This document shows, in pieces, positions 20,267 through 34,095 of a DNA stretch of 64,000 bases. This DNA comes from Acidimicrobiales bacterium (GTDB lineage: Bacteria > Actinomycetota > Acidimicrobiia > Acidimicrobiales > Iamiaceae), in the NCBI GenBank assembly GCA_020439505.1, contig JAGQSO010000043.1, forward strand, positions 1-64,000, given 5' to 3'. The position numbers were made by a program, and so were the translations under genes. Within the stretch, counting starts at the first letter, position 1. Each line of letters opens with the position of its first letter. The notes beneath the pieces are model-generated. The model did no database searches. It was not told where the DNA came from and was given only the letters and a program-made list of their open reading frames with translations.

Positions 20267-20983
20267 ATGGCCAAGCCGAATCCCGAGAGTCCGCTGAGCC
20301 TCACCATCGTCATGCCGGTCTACAACGAGCGCGAGACGCTCCGGACCGCGCTGGATCGACTTCTAGCCGTGACCATGCCGATTCCGACAGAGATCCTGGT
20401 CGTCGACGACGGATCCTCCGACGGCTGCACGGAGACCATCGCTGATCTGGTACGAGACGAGAAGGTCCGCCTCTTGGTGCAGAGCCCCAACCAGGGAAAG
20501 GGAAAGGCGCTCAGGCGAGGGATCTCAGAGGCCCAAGGCACCCTGCTGACCGTTCTCGATGCCGACCTGGAGTACGACCCGGCGGACTTTCCGGCGTTGC
20601 TTCAGCCGATAATCGACGGGGACGCGAGGGTGGTGTACGGAGCCCGGTCCTACGGCGGACACGCCGCCTATTCGTTCTGGTTCGTTCTCGGCAACAAGAT
20701 GCTTGCGCTGTGGGCGTCGTTCCTCTTTGACGCCTGGCTGACCGACATCGAGACCTGCTTGAAGGTAGCGGCGACGGACACCTGGAGAACGCTCGACCTC
20801 CAGTCGAACGGATTCGGCATCGAGGCCGAGTTGACCGGCAAGTTGCTGGCACGGGGGGAGCGGGTGTTCGAGGTGCCGATCTCCTATCGGGCGCGCGGTC
20901 GCGAGGAAGGCAAGAAGATCCAGTGGACCGACGGCGTGGCCGCATTGTGGATCCTGGCCCGGATCCGGCTGCGGGGGCGCTGA
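20267..20983 (+). CDS. Glycosyltransferase family 2, polyprenyl-phosphate sugar synthase-like
   Basis: GT-A fold enzyme of 238 aa resembling dolichol/polyprenyl-phosphate sugar synthases, which load one sugar from a nucleotide donor onto a lipid phosphate at the inner membrane face. The N-terminal VMPVYNERETL and VVDDGSSDG bind the nucleotide, and VLDADLEYDP provides the metal-binding acidic motif. The C-terminal GREEGKKIQWTDG is typical of this subgroup. There is no membrane domain. GAGGAG lies six bases before the ATG. By context it could feed the GT-C enzymes downstream; the sugar is unknown. Confidence 0.85.
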   Translation: MAKPNPESPLSLTIVMPVYNERETLRTALDRLLAVTMPIPTEILVVDDGSSDGCTETIADLVRDEKVRLLVQSPNQGKGKALRRGISEAQGTLLTVLDADLEYDPADFPALLQPIIDGDARVVYGARSYGGHAAYSFWFVLGNKMLALWASFLFDAWLTDIETCLKVAATDTWRTLDLQSNGFGIEAELTGKLLARGERVFEVPISYRARGREEGKKIQWTDGVAALWILARIRLRGR

Positions 20984-20985
20984 GC

Positions 20986-23976
20986 TTGGATCCCGGGGGC
21001 CGCGTCCGTCGCCTCGACGGAGTCCGCGGCGCTGCCGTCTTGCTGGTGGTCGTGTACCACGCCAGCTATCTGACCGCCGGATGGGGTCCGCGGCTGCTGC
21101 CTGGCGGTTTCGTGGGAGTGGACCTCTTCTTCGTCCTCAGCGGCTACCTGATCACCCGGCTCCTTCTCGCTCAACTGGACGACAACGACCGCATCGAGAT
21201 CGGTGCCTTCATGGTGCGTCGGTTCCGTCGTCTCTATCCGGCGCTGATCGCGACGGTGGTCGGGGTGGTGTGGTTGCTGGTCGCCACCGGGAGGGTCGGA
21301 TCGGCCCCCGACCAGATGACCGGGGGAGAGCTTGCCGCTTCCGCCCTGGCCACCGTGTTCTACGTCTCCAACTTCGTCCAGGCGCGAGGTTGGGAGTTCC
21401 CGATCGAGCTCTCCCACACCTGGTCGTTGGCTATCGAAGCCCAGTTCTACCTTCTCTGGCCTTTCGTTCTCGCCGGCCTGCGACGGGTGGGTTCTTCTCA
21501 GCGAACCCAGGCGGCCACGGTGATCGTGGCGATGGTTGTGATCGCCGCGCACCGGGCGGCGATGTGGACAGATCAGGCCCACTACCTACCGCTGTACCTC
21601 CGGACCGACACCCGCCTCGACGTGATCCTGGCTGGCTGTCTGCTCGCCATGGTCGTCCATTGGGGGTGGGTGCGCTCGGGGCGATGGCTACGGGTACCGG
21701 GGGTGGGCGGCGCGGCCTTCCTGGTTGCGGCCGGCCTGTTCTCCGAGACCGGGGATTCGCGGATGTACGCGGGATTCGGCCTGAGCGTGGTGGCTCTGTC
21801 AGCCCTGGCAGTGGTCGCCTCGGCGTTGTTGGACGCCGAAGGCCCGGTCGGGCGCGTGGTGTCATGGCGGCCGCTCGCCGCGCTGGGGGATCGCAGCTAC
21901 AGCCTCTACCTGTGGCACGTACCGGTCTTCTTGACGGTGGCCCGCCACATCGGCGACACCTCGGTGGTGCTGCGGGTGTTCACCGGCATGGGTCTGACCG
22001 CGTTGGTCACCGAGTTCTCCTTCCGGTTCGTGGAGTCGAGCCTCCGGGGTGGCACCCGCCCCGCAGGCCGGTCGCTCGTCGTGGGCTTCGCCAGTTGGGT
22101 GGAAGCCCACCGACGTCCGGTCCTGGTTGGGGCCGTTGCGGTTGCCTCCCTGCCGATGGGGGTGGCGGTGGTCGCGCTGAGCCGGTACGCCTGGTACCCG
22201 ATCGGCGATCTGGCCCAGGCGATGCTCCGCCAGCTGAGCTTCTGGTCCGACCCGCCGTTGGTGGGACCGGCGGGGCGGATCGGCACCTTCGCCCGCCAGG
22301 GCAACCACCCCGGACCGGCGATGTTCTGGGTGACATGGCCGGTCTGGGCCTTGCTCGGGCGAAGCTCCTGGGCATACCAGGCCGCGGTGGCGACGGTGGT
22401 GGTGACCGCTTTCGGGCTGGCCGTGGGGGTGAGCCGCAAGGTCCACGGCTGGCTCACCGCCCTGACGGTTGCGGTGGTCGGGGCGATTCTGATGCGCTCA
22501 TACGGGGCGGTCGCTCTGACCCAGCCCTGGAACCCCTATGTGCCGCTGCTGCCGTTCCTGGCCTTCGTGATCGCGTGTTGGGCGGTCGCATCCCGGCGTT
22601 GGTCCATGTTGCCGGTAGCGGTCCTTACCGGCTCGTTCTGCATCCAGTGCCATGTGGGGTACGCCCCCGCGGTGGTGGCGGGGATCGCGGGCTCGCTGGC
22701 GGTGGGACTGCTGCCTCCCCGCTGGGTCGGGGAGCCGGCGGGAGACGGGCTGTGGGGGTCGGACGCCGGCGCACCCAACGGCGCTGAGGGAGCCTTGGCC
22801 TCGACCTCGACCTCGGCCTCGGCCGAGGACCATTCGGCGGTGAACCGGTCGGGGAACGGGAGCGTGTTGGGCTGGATGGGGGTGGCGCTGGTGGCTGGCG
22901 GCCTCATCTGGGTACCGCCGATCGTCGACCAGTTGCGCCACGATCCCGGCAACATCACCATCCTGATCGAGACGTTTCGCGCTCAGACCGACGAGACGAT
23001 CGGCGTAGGGGCCGGAACGAGGATCCTTCTCACCCAACTGAACCCGGTCGGGAACTGGCTGTTCGGCACCCGGCAGATCTCGGGTTCGGTCCTACCCGGA
23101 CTGGCCTTGCTGACGGCCTGGATCGCCTCGGGGGTGGCCGCGGTACGGCGCCGCATGGGAGCGGTCCTACGGCTCGACGCCATCCTCGCGTTGCTGGTGG
23201 CATGTGCGTGGTACTGGGCTATACGCCTGGACTCGGCCCGCTTCTTGTACCTGGTGGAGTGGTTTTGGGTTCTCACCGGACTCGTGGTGGCGGCGACCGT
23301 GGCGGTCGTCGTGACCGAGGTAGCGCACCGACAGAGGCGGGGTCCGGTTGGCCCGTGGGTGGTGTCGGGGCTCGCGTTGGTCTTGGTGATGAGTACGGCG
23401 TCGTTCGCTTGGACGGCGACGGGAGTGAGCCCACCGGACATGCGTTACTCGCGTACGGTCCAGGCCATCGCCCCTGCGGTGGCCGCCGATCTGGATCCTG
23501 GGGCCACCTACCTCGTCACATGGGTCGATCCTGATGCATTGGGGGGCAACGGCTTCGGGCTGTTCCTGGAGCTCGAACGTCGTGGCCTTACCGTGAAGGC
23601 TGGCCCGGCTCGGGCCGCTCCGGTGGAACCGCACCGCGTCATCGAGCCGGCCGACGCCGACGCCGTGATCACGGTGGTGAGCGGCGACGCGCAGATCGCG
23701 CGCGCCCGGGCGCTGCCGGGCGTGCGAGAGTTGGCCTATGACGACCACCGCAGCGACGCCGAGAGAGCCGAGTACCGGTCTCTGCAACAGGCGGTGATGG
23801 AGGAGCTGCGGGCGGAGGGTCTCGGTGAGGTTGCCGACGGAATCCCCACCAGCATCTGGATCGGCCTCAACGACCCGCGGGTGCAGGGGGTTCCCTTCGA
23901 ACAGCTGTCACGGATGCTGACCATCGGTCAGGCAACCGCGGTATTCCTCTCCGATCGCGAGCTGGGAGGACTGTGA
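20986..23976 (+). CDS. Fusion: acyltransferase-3 domain plus GT-C-like membrane module
   Basis: Large membrane protein of about 996 aa with two unrelated halves. Residues 1-365 are an acyltransferase-3 (OafA/YrhL-type) domain: RRLDGVRG, the catalytic-type His in VVYHASYL, and GVDLFFVLSGYLITRLL, with about ten membrane segments. From about residue 380 a second polytopic module begins with NHPGP (440-444), WNP (515-517), QCHVGY (554-559) and WVPPIVDQL (642-650), followed by a soluble C-terminal domain. These motifs recur in order in the protein at 27060-28946, so the second half is a paralogue, probably a GT-C-like transferase. The TTG start, two bases after the GT2 stop, is the only plausible one, so it is moderately uncertain. 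A Ser/Thr/Ala-rich loop lies near residue 605. Acylation of a glycan is inferred. Confidence 0.8.
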   Translation: MDPGGRVRRLDGVRGAAVLLVVVYHASYLTAGWGPRLLPGGFVGVDLFFVLSGYLITRLLLAQLDDNDRIEIGAFMVRRFRRLYPALIATVVGVVWLLVATGRVGSAPDQMTGGELAASALATVFYVSNFVQARGWEFPIELSHTWSLAIEAQFYLLWPFVLAGLRRVGSSQRTQAATVIVAMVVIAAHRAAMWTDQAHYLPLYLRTDTRLDVILAGCLLAMVVHWGWVRSGRWLRVPGVGGAAFLVAAGLFSETGDSRMYAGFGLSVVALSALAVVASALLDAEGPVGRVVSWRPLAALGDRSYSLYLWHVPVFLTVARHIGDTSVVLRVFTGMGLTALVTEFSFRFVESSLRGGTRPAGRSLVVGFASWVEAHRRPVLVGAVAVASLPMGVAVVALSRYAWYPIGDLAQAMLRQLSFWSDPPLVGPAGRIGTFARQGNHPGPAMFWVTWPVWALLGRSSWAYQAAVATVVVTAFGLAVGVSRKVHGWLTALTVAVVGAILMRSYGAVALTQPWNPYVPLLPFLAFVIACWAVASRRWSMLPVAVLTGSFCIQCHVGYAPAVVAGIAGSLAVGLLPPRWVGEPAGDGLWGSDAGAPNGAEGALASTSTSASAEDHSAVNRSGNGSVLGWMGVALVAGGLIWVPPIVDQLRHDPGNITILIETFRAQTDETIGVGAGTRILLTQLNPVGNWLFGTRQISGSVLPGLALLTAWIASGVAAVRRRMGAVLRLDAILALLVACAWYWAIRLDSARFLYLVEWFWVLTGLVVAATVAVVVTEVAHRQRRGPVGPWVVSGLALVLVMSTASFAWTATGVSPPDMRYSRTVQAIAPAVAADLDPGATYLVTWVDPDALGGNGFGLFLELERRGLTVKAGPARAAPVEPHRVIEPADADAVITVVSGDAQIARARALPGVRELAYDDHRSDAERAEYRSLQQAVMEELRAEGLGEVADGIPTSIWIGLNDPRVQGVPFEQLSRMLTIGQATAVFLSDRELGGL
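22799..22824 (+). repeat. Hexanucleotide repeat encoding a Ser/Thr/Ala loop
   Basis: Imperfect CCTCGA/CCTCGG units encode a Ser-Thr-Ser-Thr-Ser-Ala run between two membrane segments of the fusion protein. It is likely a flexible loop that tolerates length change. Confidence 0.65.
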
Positions 23977-25316
23977 ACACGAAGCCCTCCGACCTGATGG
24001 CACGGGTGGACGACCCGACCCGTTGGTTCCTGCTCCGGCTCGGTCTCGTGACCCTGGGGGCGCTCATGTTTCGCCTCAGCCTCCTGGGATCGATCGCGGC
24101 GCGGAACCCTGACGGCGGTGATCCGCTCTTCTACCACCTCCAGGCCAACTTCCTGGTGGAGGGTCACGGCTTCTCCGATCCGTTCATCTGGCTGGAGTCC
24201 CAACGATTCGAGCCCGTGGCCATCCATCCGCCGTTGTTCACCATGTGGCTGGCGATCAGCTCCGCTCTGGGATTCAAGAGCTTCCTCGCCCACAAGATCA
24301 TGTCCTGCATCGCCGGCGCATTGGCGGTGGCGGCGATCGGGATTCTGGGTCGCGAGGCCGGCGGGCGGGGTAGGCGTGGCGCTCGGGTCGGTCTGGTGGC
24401 GGCGGTGCTGGCGGCCATCTACCCACCGCTGTGGTCCATCGACGGACAGCTCTGGCCCGAAGGCCTGTTCACGGTCATGGTGGCGTTGACCGCGCTGGCC
24501 GCCGCCAAGGTCTGGCGCAAGCCGACGCTGGGGTGGGCCGTGGCGACGGGGGTGCTGCTGGGACTCGCCGCCCTGACGCGGGGAGAGGCGATCATCATGT
24601 CGGTAGTCCTGGTGGCTCCGGCGTTGCTGCTTCGCGACCGCCAGCATCGACGGAACCTCACCCACCTGGCCGCGGCCGCGGTCGCCTGCGCTCTGGTGCT
24701 GGCGCCTTGGGCGATCCGAAACAGCCTGCGCTTCGAGGAGTTCGTGCCCCTGTCGACCAACAGCGACGAGGTGCTGGTGTACGCCAACAACCCCTACGCC
24801 TACGGAACGCTCGACGGGGGTCGATTCCTCGGCTTCTGGTATTACCCCTGGCAGGACCAGCTTCGGGCGCGCTTCGGAGGCGAGCCTCCGGGCGATGCCT
24901 CCCAGCGGGCCAAGTTCTGGGGAGACCAGGGACGTGCCTACGCCAGGGAGAACTCCGACCGGCTTCCGATCGTGCTGGCGGCGCGTCTCGGCCGGGCCTG
25001 GAACCTGTACGCGCCCTTCCAGAACGCCCTTTTCGACCGGATCGACGGAAAGTCCCAGCGCGTGAGCGTGGCGGGCGTGTGGGCGTGGTGGGCGGCCCTG
25101 GCCTTGTCGGTTCCGGGGCTGTTGCTCCTGCGCCGCCGGGGAACGACCGTCGTTCCCTTTGTCGGACTCGCTCTGACCGTGACCATCAGTTCCCTGTACG
25201 CCTATGGAGGCAACCGGTTCCGCACCCCCCTCGACGTCGCGGTCCTGGTGCTCGCGGCCGTGACCATCGAGGAGCTTCTGGCGCGCCGAGGCGACGAAGG
25301 GGTGGCACGACAATGA
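23973..25316 (+). CDS. GT-C type membrane glycosyltransferase (GT39/GT83-like)
   Basis: Polytopic protein of 447 aa resembling ArnT/PMT-like transferases that use lipid-phosphate sugars outside the membrane. The first external loop has acidic GGDPLFYHLQANFL and then AIHPPLFTMW, the conserved PPL-type element. About ten hydrophobic segments follow and the C-terminus is short. The GTG start overlaps the previous stop (GTGA) with GGGAGGA immediately upstream at ideal spacing, so it is translationally coupled to the fusion gene. Acceptor and sugar are unknown. Confidence 0.82.
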   Translation: MNTKPSDLMARVDDPTRWFLLRLGLVTLGALMFRLSLLGSIAARNPDGGDPLFYHLQANFLVEGHGFSDPFIWLESQRFEPVAIHPPLFTMWLAISSALGFKSFLAHKIMSCIAGALAVAAIGILGREAGGRGRRGARVGLVAAVLAAIYPPLWSIDGQLWPEGLFTVMVALTALAAAKVWRKPTLGWAVATGVLLGLAALTRGEAIIMSVVLVAPALLLRDRQHRRNLTHLAAAAVACALVLAPWAIRNSLRFEEFVPLSTNSDEVLVYANNPYAYGTLDGGRFLGFWYYPWQDQLRARFGGEPPGDASQRAKFWGDQGRAYARENSDRLPIVLAARLGRAWNLYAPFQNALFDRIDGKSQRVSVAGVWAWWAALALSVPGLLLLRRRGTTVVPFVGLALTVTISSLYAYGGNRFRTPLDVAVLVLAAVTIEELLARRGDEGVARQ

Positions 25317-27049
25317 ACACCACCACCGAGTTGACCCTTGCCGGTGATTCCGTGGGTGAGGGCCTGCCCGACCGTCAACCGACCACGGGTGGTGGCTGGC
25401 GTTTCGGATGGCTGGACGCGATCTCGCTCGGACTGGTGATCCTCGCACTTGCTGTCCCGTTGCGGGGACTGCTCCGTTACCAGGGGCCTCCGATGGAGGA
25501 AGGCTTCATGCTGGCCTTCCCCCAGGAGGTGCTGCGGGGTTCTATCCCGAACCGGGACTTCCTGCACCTTTACGGTCCAGGGAGCCTCTGGGTGCTGGCC
25601 GGGGTGTTCAAGGTCTTCGGTACCTCGCTGGCGACCGAGCGGTGGTTCGGTCTCCTTCAACACGCCGGTATCATCTTCGGGGTCTGGGCGGTGGCCCGGC
25701 ACTGGGGTCGGCGGACCGCGACGGTCTGTGCCCTGGTCTCGCTGGTGGTGGTGGTGCCACCGATCGGCCTGACCGCGCTGGCCTGGAACGGAGCGGTGGC
25801 GCTGGCTCTCTGGTCGGTCTACCTGCTGGCGCAGCCGGGGAGGGGTGGGTCCAAGAGGCCGATTGTCGCGGGCCTGTTGGCTGGGCTCGCCCTGTTGTTC
25901 CGGCCTGATCTGGTCCTGGCGCTCAGCCTCGGCCTCGGTGCGGCGGTGTGGCGCCCGACTATGGACCGGGTGCGTCCGGTTCTGACCGGGCTGGTCGCAG
26001 GGGCGTCACCGATGTTGGTACACATCGTGATGGCGGGACCGGAGGCCGCCTTCAAGGGGATGTTCGTCGAGCCGGTGTTCCGGCTTCGGCCCGGAAGGTC
26101 GCTGCCAGTCCCGCCGTCATGGACCGAGCTGGACGGGTTTCTCCAGAAGGCCGCCGGTCTCCGCACCATCGGGTGGCCCTTTCCGGCGCCGACCTCGGCT
26201 CAGCAGGTGGCACTCTGGTTTTTCCTGGTGCCGGTCAGCACGGTGTTCGTGGCCGCCGTGGGGATCTGGTCCTGTCGTCGTCGGCCCGGCGATCAACGGA
26301 GTCATCTGTTGAGGGCGGTGGGTTTTCTGGGGCTCGGGATGCTGACCCAGGCGATGCAGAGGCCTGACACGGCCCACTTCGCCTGGGTCAGCTGTGTTCC
26401 GCTGGCCCTGGTACCAGTCGCCGTCCATCAGCTACTGCCAGCGGGATGGCCGGCGGTCTCGTGGAGACGTTTCGTGGCGACCACCGCTCCGGTTGTGATC
26501 GTCGTGTTCGCGGCGATCCCCCACTACACGGTGCGGACCTATGTGGACCTGGCCGGACAGAGCCTGGGCCGCAACGTCTTCGGGTTCCCGGTGAACCACG
26601 AGGGCCGCAACTTCTACTACGGCTCCCCCGACGCAGCGGCCGCCGCCAACGAGCTGGTGCGCGACCTCGGCGAGTGGTCCCAGCCCGGAGAATCGCTCCT
26701 GGTCGGCCCGGTCGATTTCCGGTTCACGCCCTACTCGGACGCCTTCTTCTACTTCTTGTTCCCCGACCTCGTTCCTGCCACCCGCTACATCGAGATGGAC
26801 CCTGGCATCGCCAACGGGCACGACTCGGGCCTGGCCGACGAGGTCCGGTCGGCAGACTGGCTGATCCTCTCCAATGTCTGGACCAACTGGGCCGAGCCCA
26901 ACGCTTCGCTCGAACCTGGCTCAGATGCGCCGAACCAGGTGGTGAAAGACCACTTCTGTCGTGTCGGAGCCTACGGCGACCGCGACGGGCGGCCCTGGTT
27001 CGAGCTCTACCGACCTTGCGACCGCATCGGCGACCACGGAGAAGGCTGA
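25313..27049 (+). CDS. Polytopic membrane protein, probable GT-C glycosyltransferase
   Basis: Membrane protein of 578 aa. After a short polar N-terminus and a first membrane segment comes an external loop with GPPMEEGFMLAFPQEVL and LHLYGPGSLWVL. The acidic residues and the YGP motif match a group of actinobacterial GT-C-like proteins. Around ten membrane segments follow, then a soluble domain of about 150 residues (from about residue 415) near the C-terminus. The ATG overlaps the previous stop (ATGA) with a GAAGGGG ribosome site. It ends ten bases before the stop of the convergent gene. It is the last gene of the five-gene operon starting with the methyltransferase. Confidence 0.75.
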   Translation: MNTTTELTLAGDSVGEGLPDRQPTTGGGWRFGWLDAISLGLVILALAVPLRGLLRYQGPPMEEGFMLAFPQEVLRGSIPNRDFLHLYGPGSLWVLAGVFKVFGTSLATERWFGLLQHAGIIFGVWAVARHWGRRTATVCALVSLVVVVPPIGLTALAWNGAVALALWSVYLLAQPGRGGSKRPIVAGLLAGLALLFRPDLVLALSLGLGAAVWRPTMDRVRPVLTGLVAGASPMLVHIVMAGPEAAFKGMFVEPVFRLRPGRSLPVPPSWTELDGFLQKAAGLRTIGWPFPAPTSAQQVALWFFLVPVSTVFVAAVGIWSCRRRPGDQRSHLLRAVGFLGLGMLTQAMQRPDTAHFAWVSCVPLALVPVAVHQLLPAGWPAVSWRRFVATTAPVVIVVFAAIPHYTVRTYVDLAGQSLGRNVFGFPVNHEGRNFYYGSPDAAAAANELVRDLGEWSQPGESLLVGPVDFRFTPYSDAFFYFLFPDLVPATRYIEMDPGIANGHDSGLADEVRSADWLILSNVWTNWAEPNASLEPGSDAPNQVVKDHFCRVGAYGDRDGRPWFELYRPCDRIGDHGEG

Positions 27050-27059
27050 GACGTCAGCG

Positions 27060-28946
27060 CTAGTCCGACGGAGCCAGGTGCCACACCTGGATCCGATGCT
27101 CATCCCCGAGGGTGGTGAGCCGCTGGATCTCGAACAGCTCGTCACCGGAAATCCCGTCCACGACGATCAGATCCCGAACCGCGAGGTCGGCGAGGGTTCC
27201 GTCGTCGAAAGCGCCGACCGGATCGGCCAGAGCGGCGCTAGCGGCCTGCTGTTGGGTTGAGGACGAGGGCTGGCGAGGACCGCGGCGAACCGTGGACGGG
27301 GTGAGACCATCACGTATCCGGGCCCGTCGGTCCCGGAGGGAGCTGGCCTCCTGGTCGGTGAGGGTCGGTACCTCGACCACCAGGGTGGCCCCCGGCGGAG
27401 GGCGAGGATCCATCCCGCTCCTCACCCAGAGCTCGTTCATGCCGGTTTGCCCGTTGTAGCGACGGAACTCGCGCCATGGGAAGACAGGGCTGGGCGCACC
27501 AGGGTCGATGAGGACGGTTCCTCCCGCCTGTTGGGTGGCAAGGGCCACCGCCGAGCCGGTCGAGAGGTACGGGGTGGCGCCCCGGAAACGAACCACCGTG
27601 GTCGAGGCCGACGAGATCTCCTTCACCGGGCCGGCGACCTCGCCAGCGATTCGCCGCTGTACCGCCCACGGCGCCCAGGTCGCAGGGCGCGGTAGAGCGG
27701 CGACAGCGAGAAGGAGTGCCACCAACAGCGCCGTCGAAGCGGCCGCGTTCCGCTTGCCGAGGGCGGCCCACGTCGAGCGCGGTGCTCTTGCGGGAGGGAG
27801 AAGCAACCAGGCCAGCCACCCGGTCACCATCCACACCACGACGGCCAAGGGACGCATCCACAGGGCGTAGTAGCGGTACAGGATCCCGTCGCTGAGCGGG
27901 ATGCGAGAGGCCGTCACCGCTCCGGCGAGAAGGATGACCATCACGGTGATGGTCACCGGTGCCAGCTCTCGTGCCCGTCGAAGCTGCAGGGTGAGCAACA
28001 CGGCCAGCAGAAGGAAGGGGAGTGCCAGCGCGGCTGCGGACAAGAGGCTCATCGGGTCGAAGGCCCCCGTCATCGCGCTGTCGGGCGATATTCCGGCCAC
28101 CGGAATCCCGACGACCCGGCCAAACTCGGCCAGGCCCGATGTTCCGGCCGCCTCGCCCCCCGGTCCCGCCGTGAGCGCGCGAACGATCTGGGTGAGGTTT
28201 CCGGGATGACCGGTGAGTTGTTGGATGAGCGGCGGTAGCCACAATCCCACTGCCAGGACTCCCGCCAGCACCAACGGTCGCCGGGATAAGGGCGAAGGCG
28301 TGGACTCGGCACCCCGACAGCTTCGCCATGCCACCACCACAGCCACCCAGGCGGCCACGGCACCGACCAGTCCGACATAGCTCAGGTGGGTCTGGGCGAC
28401 GAGCGAGCCAGCCGCCACCATCACGGGGAGCGCGGCGTTGCGTCCTGCGCTGACCGCGACCGCGCCGACAAGGAACACCGCAAACGGCATCACCACGACA
28501 TGAGGGTTCCAGACCGAGACCGGCGTGTCTGCTCCGACCCCCCACAGGATCAGGGCGGATCCGACGAGCCCGACACCGGCAAGCGAACTCCCTCCCATCA
28601 GGTACAGAACCCAGGTCAGGGTGCCGATCGACGCCACCGACACCAACGCCGCGGTCAGCGTCGATCCGGCCGCCGGTGACACCTTCGAAAGGGGGGCCAG
28701 CAGGTAGAACTCGATCGGTCCCGGATGGTGCAGCTCGGGGTCCTCGAGATGGGCTCCGGCGGTGGAGATCATCCCGACGAGGGGAGGATCCGTCGTCATC
28801 GAATCCCCGGCCAGCATCACGATCGTGGCGTCGTCACTCTCGGGAAACCACCCTGCCCGGAGCTGGTGGAACCAGGCTGTCCCAACCGGTAGAGCGGCCA
28901 AAACGGCCAGTGCGGTCCAGATCAGGGTCCGTCGGGCGACCGGCAC
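27060..28946 (-). CDS. Polytopic GT-C-like protein, paralogue of the fusion's second half
   Basis: Membrane protein of 628 aa. The first external loop has FPESDDATIVMLAGDS and then HHPGP (73-77), with WNP at 146-148, QTHLSY at 185-190, WLPPLIQQL at 236-244 and HPGN at 247-250. The same motif order with similar spacing is found in residues 440-660 of the fusion protein at 20986-23976. The last 180 or so residues are soluble. GT-C assignment is inferred from topology and context; no database family was confirmed. The GTG start has no ribosome site but has TACACT seven bases upstream, so it may be leaderless. It is divergent from the GT2 gene at 29056. Confidence 0.7.
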   Translation of the reverse strand: MPVARRTLIWTALAVLAALPVGTAWFHQLRAGWFPESDDATIVMLAGDSMTTDPPLVGMISTAGAHLEDPELHHPGPIEFYLLAPLSKVSPAAGSTLTAALVSVASIGTLTWVLYLMGGSSLAGVGLVGSALILWGVGADTPVSVWNPHVVVMPFAVFLVGAVAVSAGRNAALPVMVAAGSLVAQTHLSYVGLVGAVAAWVAVVVAWRSCRGAESTPSPLSRRPLVLAGVLAVGLWLPPLIQQLTGHPGNLTQIVRALTAGPGGEAAGTSGLAEFGRVVGIPVAGISPDSAMTGAFDPMSLLSAAALALPFLLLAVLLTLQLRRARELAPVTITVMVILLAGAVTASRIPLSDGILYRYYALWMRPLAVVVWMVTGWLAWLLLPPARAPRSTWAALGKRNAAASTALLVALLLAVAALPRPATWAPWAVQRRIAGEVAGPVKEISSASTTVVRFRGATPYLSTGSAVALATQQAGGTVLIDPGAPSPVFPWREFRRYNGQTGMNELWVRSGMDPRPPPGATLVVEVPTLTDQEASSLRDRRARIRDGLTPSTVRRGPRQPSSSTQQQAASAALADPVGAFDDGTLADLAVRDLIVVDGISGDELFEIQRLTTLGDEHRIQVWHLAPSD

Positions 28947-31175: not shown

Positions 31176-32768
31176 TCAGTCTGCGGGTGGGTGGTGGCGT
31201 TCCAGGACTTCGCGGTCGATCACCGGCGCATCCCTACCGGTTCCGTGGCTGCCGGCAGGCCGGCTCCGCTCGGTGGTCGTGGCGGCCTCCTCGTGGTACT
31301 CCTCCTCCACGTTCACCTCCCAGACGTCGTGGGTGGACCCGGTGAGGATGTTCTCCACCGTGAGCATGGCGGTGAACATCGAGTGATCCTGGTTGTTGTA
31401 CCGGAACATGCCGTTGCGTCCGACCGGATGGACATTCGGTGTGTTCGCCGAAAGCCAGCCGCGGAGGACGTCGACGTTGGCCCGGTAGCGGTCGTCATAG
31501 ATCGGGTACGCCTTGGCCTGACGAACCACGTAGCCGTCCTGGATCTGTCCGGCACGGGCCAGCCCCAGCTGCTCGAGTTCGCGCTTGGCCCGCTCGATAA
31601 GGACCTCGTCGGGGGAGGACCACTCGTCGTCTCCCTCCCACACCGTGTACTCCAGGCCCAGGGTGTTGAAGCCGGGTTTGACCATGTAGGGGGACCAGGA
31701 GCCGAAGTTTTGGATCCGCATGGTCCGCACGTTCGGATCATGGATGTAGATCCAGTTGTCGTCGAAGTCGACGAGGGCCTCGGGAAGGACCAGGGCGACG
31801 ATCAGGTAGTCGCGGTAGCGGAGATCGGCCGCTGCTTTGCGGACGGACTCGGGAACCGGTGGGTCCATCGCCTCGAGCAGGGCGGAGATCGGCATCGAGG
31901 AGATCACCTCGGTGCAGGGGTGTTCGGTCTCCTGTCCGTCCTTGGCGCGGGCGACCACCGAAACCGCTCGCCCCTCGTGGTGGTTGACCTTGGTGACGGT
32001 GGTCTCGGTGGTGAGGGTGCTCCCGGCCGCCGTCACCTTGTCCCGGCAGACCTCCCACATCATCCCCGGTCCGTACTTGGGGTACTGGAACTCCTCGATG
32101 AGGGAGGTGATCTCCTTCTGGTTACGTTTCGGGGCCAGGGCGTTGACGATCGCGTTGCCCAGCGAGAGACCCTTGACCCGTTGCGCGGCCCAGTCGGCGG
32201 GCATGTCGGCCACCGGCACGCCCCAGAGCTTCTCGGTGTAGGTCTTGAAGAAGGTGCGGTAAAGCCGCCAACCGAACCGGGCGACGAGCCAGCCCTCGTA
32301 GTTGGTCTGATCCTTGGGCGGCCGGATCTGGGCGGCAGCGTAGGACGAGACGCAGCGGACCGCCTCGACCGGGCCCAGGTTGCGCAGGGCGTTGGAGGCC
32401 TTGATCGGGTAGTCGTAGTACTTGCCCTCATAGAAGATGCGGCTCTTGCGCGGCCGCATCAGGAAGTCCTCATCGGGCAGGATCTCGTGCCACAGGTCCT
32501 CTACCGGTTGGACCTTGGTGAAGAACCGGTGACCGCCGATGTCGAAGCGCCAGCCGTCCTTCTGGGCGGTACGGGAGATACCCCCGACCTGTTCGTCGGC
32601 CTCGAGGATCGTGCTGGCCACGCCCGCCTTGTGGAACTGGAACGCCGCGGTCAGGCCGGCGGGACCGGCCCCGATGATGACGACCTGATGTTGGCTGGAC
32701 TGGTCCACCACCGGCTGCTCCTGGAGGTGCGAGTCGGCCGACGAGGCGTTGGAGTCGGTTGACGTCAT
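31176..32768 (-). CDS. NAD(P)/FAD-dependent oxidoreductase, UDP-galactopyranose mutase/amine oxidase-like
   Basis: Flavoprotein of 530 aa. The Rossmann FAD-binding motif is VVIIGAGPAGLTAAFQF (glycines 33, 35 and 38), followed by DIGGHRFFTKV, as in the UDP-galactopyranose mutase and protoporphyrinogen-oxidase-like superfamily often found in glycan loci. It is longer than a classical mutase (about 380-400 aa), so conversion to galactofuranose is only one possibility. Other mutase or desaturase activities are possible. The ATG at 32768 leaves a polar N-terminus of about 28 residues. It is divergent from, and close to, the acyltransferase gene. Role in surface glycan chemistry is inferred from context. 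Confidence 0.78.
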   Translation of the reverse strand: MTSTDSNASSADSHLQEQPVVDQSSQHQVVIIGAGPAGLTAAFQFHKAGVASTILEADEQVGGISRTAQKDGWRFDIGGHRFFTKVQPVEDLWHEILPDEDFLMRPRKSRIFYEGKYYDYPIKASNALRNLGPVEAVRCVSSYAAAQIRPPKDQTNYEGWLVARFGWRLYRTFFKTYTEKLWGVPVADMPADWAAQRVKGLSLGNAIVNALAPKRNQKEITSLIEEFQYPKYGPGMMWEVCRDKVTAAGSTLTTETTVTKVNHHEGRAVSVVARAKDGQETEHPCTEVISSMPISALLEAMDPPVPESVRKAAADLRYRDYLIVALVLPEALVDFDDNWIYIHDPNVRTMRIQNFGSWSPYMVKPGFNTLGLEYTVWEGDDEWSSPDEVLIERAKRELEQLGLARAGQIQDGYVVRQAKAYPIYDDRYRANVDVLRGWLSANTPNVHPVGRNGMFRYNNQDHSMFTAMLTVENILTGSTHDVWEVNVEEEYHEEAATTTERSRPAGSHGTGRDAPVIDREVLERHHPPAD

Positions 32769-32865
32769 GGTGGGGGATTGTCCTCTCGCGGTCGTGGCAG
32801 ACTCGTGGCGTGACCATTCCACGCGTACCCCGACCGGTCGTACCCGGTGGGGACGAGGTGGGCGG

Positions 32866-34095
32866 GTGACACGTCGGGAGGCCCGGCGCAGCCCGATCGA
32901 CGCTAGCGAATCCGGCCATCGTCCACCGCACTTCGCCGGCCTGGAATCGATCCGCGCCCTGGCCGCCTCGATGGTCGTGGTCCACCACGTCGCTTCGGTC
33001 TCGGGACCTCGGGCCGGCGTGGTGGCCACTCCCGCAGCGGTGATGGACTCGGGGGTGGCCGTCTTCTTCGTGCTGTCGGGGTTCCTGATCTTCCGCCCCT
33101 ATGTTTCGGGGCTGGTCGACGGCGGGCCGCGTCCGTCTCCGGTCTCGTTCTGGTGGCGGCGGGTGCTACGAATCCTCCCGGCGTACTGGCTTGCCTTGAC
33201 CGTCTTGTGGCAGATGGGGAGCTTCCGCCTGGGGGACCAGTGGTGGCGGCACTACCTGCTGCTTCAGCCCTATGACCGCTACACCGCGCTGGCCGGGCTG
33301 GTCCCGGCGTGGAGCCTCAGCACCGAGCTCGCCTTCTACGCCATGGTGCCGCCGCTGGCGGCGATCGCCGGCTGGCTGATCGAAGCCGTGGCCCCAGGTC
33401 CGGACCGACGTTCGCTCCGCGCCCTGATCCTGGCTGTCCTGTTCGGGGCGGTCTGCCTGGTCGCCCCGGTGGCCCGGGCCACCGCAACCAGTTGGGCCGG
33501 CGTCAACCACCAGCTTGCGTTCCAGTGGCTCCCCACCAACCTCGACCTGTTCGGCGCCGGGATGCTCATAGCCCTGGTTTCGGTCTGGAGTCAGGGGTCC
33601 CCGCTGGGTCGCAAGCGACTGGACCAGGTGGCCGGGCCGGCATGGGCCTGGTGGTCGGGGGCCGGGGTGGTGTTCCTCGTCTATGCCTACCGGATCGGCG
33701 GGGTGGACCTGGTCGTCGGCTATCAGGGGTGGTCCTGGCAGTTGCGCCAGGTGACCTTCCTTGCCTGTTCGGTCCTCCTGCTCTTTCCCGCGGTGTTCGG
33801 AGTTCAGGATCGGGGGCGGCTGAGGCGCCTGTGGAGTGCTCCAGCGGTGGTGTGGGTCGGCACCGTCTCCTATGGCGTGTATCTGTGGCACGTCGGCATC
33901 CTCGAGCGGCTGGTCCCGAGGCCGCCCTCCTTGATCGATGAGGGTTGGGCCGGTCTGTTGTCCAGGGCCTCCCCGCCGTCGTTCTGGCTGCTCCTGGTCG
34001 TGACGTTCGGGGGTGCGGTGACGGTGGCGGCAGCAAGCTGGTACGGCCTCGAGCGACCTTTGCAGCGCTGGAAAGGGTTGCTGGACCGTGGCTGA
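32866..34095 (+). CDS. Acyltransferase family 3 membrane protein (OafA/YrhL-like)
   Basis: Polytopic acyltransferase of about 409 aa, expected to O-acylate a surface glycan or lipid. Family motifs are LESIRALAAS, VVVHHVASVS with the catalytic-type His, GVAVFFVLSGFLIFRPY, and VSYGVYLWHVGILE near the end, with about ten membrane segments. It lacks the SGNH domain seen in some members. The GTG at 32866 has GAGG eight bases upstream. Earlier in-frame starts would overlap the divergent flavoprotein gene. The next gene begins inside its last eight bases. Confidence 0.85.
   Translation: MTRREARRSPIDASESGHRPPHFAGLESIRALAASMVVVHHVASVSGPRAGVVATPAAVMDSGVAVFFVLSGFLIFRPYVSGLVDGGPRPSPVSFWWRRVLRILPAYWLALTVLWQMGSFRLGDQWWRHYLLLQPYDRYTALAGLVPAWSLSTELAFYAMVPPLAAIAGWLIEAVAPGPDRRSLRALILAVLFGAVCLVAPVARATATSWAGVNHQLAFQWLPTNLDLFGAGMLIALVSVWSQGSPLGRKRLDQVAGPAWAWWSGAGVVFLVYAYRIGGVDLVVGYQGWSWQLRQVTFLACSVLLLFPAVFGVQDRGRLRRLWSAPAVVWVGTVSYGVYLWHVGILERLVPRPPSLIDEGWAGLLSRASPPSFWLLLVVTFGGAVTVAAASWYGLERPLQRWKGLLDRG

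Follow-up and report, generated by a model that had tools for sequence, protein, structure and literature searches.

Within the 64,000-nucleotide window (the whole stretch of DNA that was analysed) lies a locus in which one gene joins an acyltransferase-3 (AT3) domain to a second polytopic module resembling GT-C glycosyltransferases. The open frame runs from 20986 to 23976 on the forward strand and encodes 996 amino acids, and inspection of the reading frame revealed no internal stop. It starts with TTG two bases past the stop codon of an upstream GT2 gene, while an alternative in-frame GTG start at 20923, which would give a longer product, would overlap that gene. The GT2 gene is a conserved neighbour of the fusion, and its product resembles archaeal dolichyl-phosphate sugar synthases in NCBIfam (AglJ profile TIGR04182, E 8e-31, below the profile's cut-off). 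Downstream follow two genes for GT-C-like proteins and, 3 kb away, a stand-alone paralogue of the second half (30% identity over 307 columns, E 5e-16 by BLASTP). Candidate donor-synthesis genes of the locus are two GT2 genes, and several GT-C proteins are also present (Table 1).

Table 1. Coordinates of the parts of the fused gene and of its neighbours in the window.
Feature	Residues	Position	Strand	Evidence or remark
GT2 family, polyprenyl-phosphate sugar synthase-like		20267..20983	+	PF00535 E 8.8e-30
AT3 domain	1-357	20986..22056	+	PF01757 at residues 9-340
Linker	358-375	22057..22110	+	Arg-containing; within least conserved stretch
GT-C-like glycosyltransferase module	~376-996	22111..23973	+	AlphaFold, Foldseek/VIA, 41-row family alignment
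Asp408, candidate catalytic residue, first outer loop of GT-C module	408	22207..22209	+	Alignment; putative role
Low-confidence loop within GT-C module	592-623	22759..22854	+	pLDDT <50
C-terminal alpha/beta soluble part of GT-C module	~817-996	23434..23973	+	Strand/helix pattern, model
PMT_2 GT-C protein		23973..25316	+	PF13231 E 7.7e-12; start overlaps fusion stop
GT-C-like protein, next gene after PMT_2		25313..27049	+	PF13231 E 2.1e-05, just under cut-off
Stand-alone module paralogue		27060-28946	-	BLASTP to second half; no Pfam match

The match of the AT3 half to PF01757 (E 4.7e-29, 101.9 bits against a cut-off of 31) covers positions 3-319 of the 326 in the profile and is thus a whole-domain match. 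The motifs R14-X10-H25 in helix 1 and R79xxR82 between helices 2 and 3 are invariant in all six aligned copies, and GGFVGVD (with D46) is invariant across the aligned fused and split copies. In OafA, the equivalent R-X10-H and RXXR motifs and the Asp of GGFxGVD are essential by mutagenesis, according to the available portion of that study (PMC7448272). Residues 1-354 form about ten long helices in the full-length model, with pLDDT of about 42-87 per ten-residue block, and the first membrane helix of the GT-C module marks its start at residue ~376. Identity between the fused copies is 64-66% in residues 1-340 and 65-77% in residues 401-580 and 626-996; in the linker region (residues 355-378) it is 33-42%, and the frame is kept there in all three copies. 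Most of the loop at residues 592-623 has no counterpart in the alignment of the other two intact fused copies.

Two further regions of the window bear mention. Between 11841 and 16125, a small GTPase gene accompanies a large gene of sensor-kinase type whose tail is rich in Pro and Ala; the two look like a conservon (Cvn) cluster. At 31176-34095, an FAD-dependent amine-oxidase/mutase-like gene on the reverse strand and a second AT3 gene on the forward strand have listed 5' ends that overlap by about 280 bases, so one or both start codons probably lie further in. A mycobacterial-type arabinan pathway was considered for the locus and dropped, because a search for PF04602 (Arabinose_trans) gave no match in the window's own genome, while the Corynebacterium glutamicum control matched; we therefore do not name arabinose as the sugar.

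The second half and its family

Judged from sequence, the second module is a family of its own without a Pfam entry. A Pfam search of the fusion beyond the AT3 domain gave no match, SGNH included, and NCBIfam gave none past residue 403. A sequence search of the PDB with the second half as single sequence was likewise empty, and a profile search returned chance-like rows only, the best of them (E 0.053) a designed protein. In a sample of 298 Acidimicrobiales genomes, at least 51 carry members of the family. In a sample of the phylum they were found in 9 of 296 genomes, eight of the same order (the window's own genome included) and one of the same class, so that among the genomes sampled the family is confined to one actinobacterial class. 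Tandem pairs of module-family genes were seen at three loci in other genomes (L085:8088-11560, L082:4613-8224 and L087:6096-9672), so this GT-C family may have duplicated more than once inside glycan loci.

The predicted fold supports a GT-C-like identity for the second half, a putative glycosyltransferase. An AlphaFold model of the module, built from a 41-member alignment, reached a pLDDT of 89.7 and a pTM of 0.91. Against solved structures, Foldseek matched this model to ArnT (E 5.0e-08), and ArnT was also the best match by VIA (Z 18.6, 429 residues, rmsd 4.7, 14% identity). The top VIA rows were ArnT, ALG12, Pmt (protein O-mannosyltransferases), OST (oligosaccharyltransferases) and AftA, with Z from 18.6 to 14.6, and further fold matches included AftB and Emb proteins; ALG and Pmt proteins belong to GT-C. 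Position 408 (module position 37), which sits just past the first helix in the module model, is Asp in 39 of the 41 aligned family members and Glu in the other two, and an acidic residue of the first extracytoplasmic loop presumably has a catalytic role in GT-C enzymes. The alignment holds 13 invariant columns, e.g. G72-P73, W144-N145 and Q183-x-H185 in module numbering. Taken alone, sequence points to GT-C identity only weakly: PMT_2 matches were found in 3 of the 41 members (best E 0.00013) and none in the fusion protein itself, and an hhalign comparison of the module profile with the PMT_2 proteins of the window reached 13% probability.

The C-terminal alpha/beta part follows the last long helix of the model. 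Since the ArnT match spans residues 3-619 of the module's 625, and since stand-alone members align with this part too, we assign it to the GT-C module.

Much of what the earlier note had read from the letters holds. Its AT3 domain is complete, although the edge it set at residue 365 lies slightly late, the domain ending near residue 357. The second polytopic module that it described belongs to a real family, as both the paralogue and the genome counts testify, and the GT-C likeness it proposed is borne out by the match of the module model to ArnT. The soluble end that it noted is present, but is not separate from the GT-C module.

Distribution and origin of the fusion

The same fusion is found in two other genomes, G001 (L001, an Acidimicrobiales draft) and G002 (L002, an Actinomycetota draft), with about 65-67% identity, and the frames are stop-free in both and in the window's genome (G000). 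In a fourth genome, G006, the AT3 part ends with its contig at residue 310, while the remainder, matched from residue 364 and in open frame, opens another contig; G006 is thus probably fused as well. Among the matches listed, the fusion is intact in 3 of the 24 family genomes and probable in this one more, all of them in the window's genus. Of 134 module-containing frames of at least 300 amino acids in the loci sampled (redundant copies included), 12 carry AT3, all from G000, G001 or G002, and no independent AT3-module fusion was found outside these three genomes among those frames. Another type of AT3 fusion was observed in a further relative, G060 (L029:874-3456), where AT3 is fused to DUF459 (PF04311).

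These observations agree with the absence of a stop or frameshift between the halves reported in the earlier note, and they answer its call to look for the same architecture elsewhere and to check the assembly for a merged pair: three separately assembled genomes carry it. We conclude that the fusion is a real gene and not an assembly fault.

In the intact fused genomes the gene order is methyltransferase, GT2, AT3-GT-C, PMT_2 and GT-C. The nearest unfused relatives, G005 (whose contig ends inside the PMT_2 gene) and G004, have the same order, with AT3 and module as separate neighbouring genes and the module gene on the opposite strand, tail to tail with AT3. The earlier note had held that relatives with two genes would speak against the fusion. 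Such relatives do exist, yet their module gene lies on the opposite strand and three assemblies are fused. In the 13 unfused loci with an orthologue of the GT2 gene, among those examined, the nearest module gene, in some of them several kilobases from that orthologue, is on the strand opposite to it in ten (G003, G004, G005, G008, G010, G011, G012, G014, G015 and G022) and on the same strand in three (G009, G020 and G023).

The module tree unites the three fused copies and the probably fused one of G006 in a single clade (SH-aLRT 100); G005 (96) is its nearest sister and G004 (100) the next, while the paralogue at 27060-28946 falls in the outgroup clade. In the AT3 tree the same six genomes group together (99), but the fused or probably fused four are not resolved there as one clade, so it is the module tree and the gene order that give the polarity. 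By these two the fusion is derived, having arisen within a single sub-clade of the genus. It is most simply explained by one inversion in place of the module gene, which joined its frame behind AT3. A literature search on fusions born by inversion found nothing relevant.

A link between AT3 and the module beyond the fusion is supported by their neighbourhood in unfused loci. Of the 21 unfused loci counted alongside the three fused ones, 9 have an AT3 gene no more than 600 bases away from a gene of the module family, and 12 have none beside it; the count leaves out G006 and G018, with copies on broken contigs, and genomes whose module loci were covered only as short stretches. In G008, G010, G011 and G015, the AT3 neighbour is closest to the window's other AT3 gene, not to the fused one.

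Proposed function and its alternatives

The architecture differs from those of known AT3 proteins. The partners named in the available portions of the relevant accounts are SGNH, alanine racemase-type and, in animals, NRF domains (PMC9558356, PMC9833829, PMC12423673). Members of the AT3-SGNH subclass (OafA, OafB, OatA and PglI; PF01757 with SGNH) share the N-terminal AT3, the R-X10-H, RXXR and GGFxGVD motifs and a C-terminal extension, but theirs is a soluble SGNH domain behind an 11th helix, whereas the extension here is polytopic, GT-C-like and some 620 residues long. Assignment to this subclass was ruled out, as Pfam finds no SGNH domain and the second half matches GT-C folds. VanT-type AT3-racemases likewise carry a C-terminal enzyme of another class, according to the part of PMC9558356 available, yet a soluble racemase and not a membrane glycosyltransferase-like module. 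ArnT, an undecaprenyl-phosphate aminoarabinose transferase of GT-C, shares the predicted fold but lacks an AT3 domain. The profile of mycobacterial SucT (NF058601) matches only residues 9-403 of the fusion (71 bits against a cut-off of 1275) and leaves the second half beyond residue 403 unmatched. The earlier note knew of no AT3 fusion to this kind of module; we likewise found no AT3-GT-C fusion in a full-text literature search, and the accounts of AT3 fusions, in their available portions, mention no GT-C partner. A search on the cell wall of Acidimicrobiia found nothing relevant. The fusion is a new domain architecture made from two known enzyme kinds and has been seen to date in a single sub-clade of one genus.

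The sugars that GT-C enzymes transfer are lipid-linked and taken up at the outer side of the membrane. Because the cytoplasm is where an AT3 domain ends and a GT-C protein begins, no additional helix would be needed to link the halves. For the whole protein the model scores lower than for the module alone (pLDDT 79.6, pTM 0.66), and its placement of the halves relative to each other is of low confidence. In the model given in the available text of PMC9833829, AT3 domains take acyl groups from acyl-CoA and pass them to acceptors beyond the membrane. We propose, at slightly better than even odds (about 0.55), that the gene product is a single membrane protein with two enzyme activities, acylation and sugar transfer, in a locus for a cell-surface glycan, and that its halves serve one glycan. 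Both halves would be active. The AT3 half would take an acyl group from acyl-CoA in the cytoplasm and bring it through the membrane, while the GT-C half would transfer a sugar onto the glycan at the outer face; the polyprenyl-phosphate donor of that sugar would probably come from the upstream GT2 enzyme. AT3 would acylate the glycan extended by the GT-C half, before or after the transfer, and the fusion may serve co-localisation and equal dosage. That both halves act on one glycan, in line with the earlier note's idea of one protein adding sugar and acyl group to a shared substrate, is, considered by itself, close to an even bet. Judging by G004 and G005, where the two are separate genes, the functions do not seem to depend on a physical link between the halves. 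More tentatively, and at somewhat under even odds, the GT-C half may add a sugar and the AT3 half acylate that very sugar or its lipid-linked donor, which would make this the first AT3-GT-C enzyme, born by inversion of an adjacent convergent gene.

Alternatively, the halves could both be active on different glycans of the locus, the fusion being a neutral by-product of a frame-keeping inversion or a means of fixing equal dosage. The separate genes of G004 and G005, the 12 of 21 unfused loci without an AT3 neighbour and the poor conservation of the linker are all consistent with this. However, three or four genomes have retained the fusion at 63-70% identity, both halves are conserved, the linker stays in frame, and separate AT3 and module genes adjoin in 9 of the 21 unfused loci. 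We consider this reading less likely. We regard as more doubtful still that the second module, despite its GT-C fold, is no sugar transferase and acts as an acceptor-binding or scaffolding partner of AT3, a substitute for SGNH: no curated family names the module, and GPI transamidase chains make up 4 of the 50 listed fold matches, but Asp or Glu stands at position 408 in all 41 members beside the 13 invariant columns, and in nearly every genome where it occurs the module family has no AT3 fused to it. Finally, a merger of two genes by a sequencing error near 22080 is ruled out to near certainty, for although the three fused genomes are all multi-contig drafts and the contig ends of G006 fall within this part of the gene, the junction is the same in three separate assemblies whose linker sequences differ, and the opposite-strand module gene of the split relatives means that no lost stop, frameshift or single-base error made the fusion.

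By what route AT3 enzymes locate their acceptor and gain access to it is raised as an open question in the available part of an AT3 review (PMC9558356), and a natural fusion to a sugar transferase-like module points to the acceptor pathway, with the unfused pair of closely related genomes as a natural control. The fusion also draws attention to a GT-C family that Pfam does not list, and shows clearly that two polytopic membrane enzymes can become joined, most simply via inversion of one gene. If the AT3 half does acylate the sugar that the GT-C half adds, a single protein would install an acylated sugar on a surface glycan.
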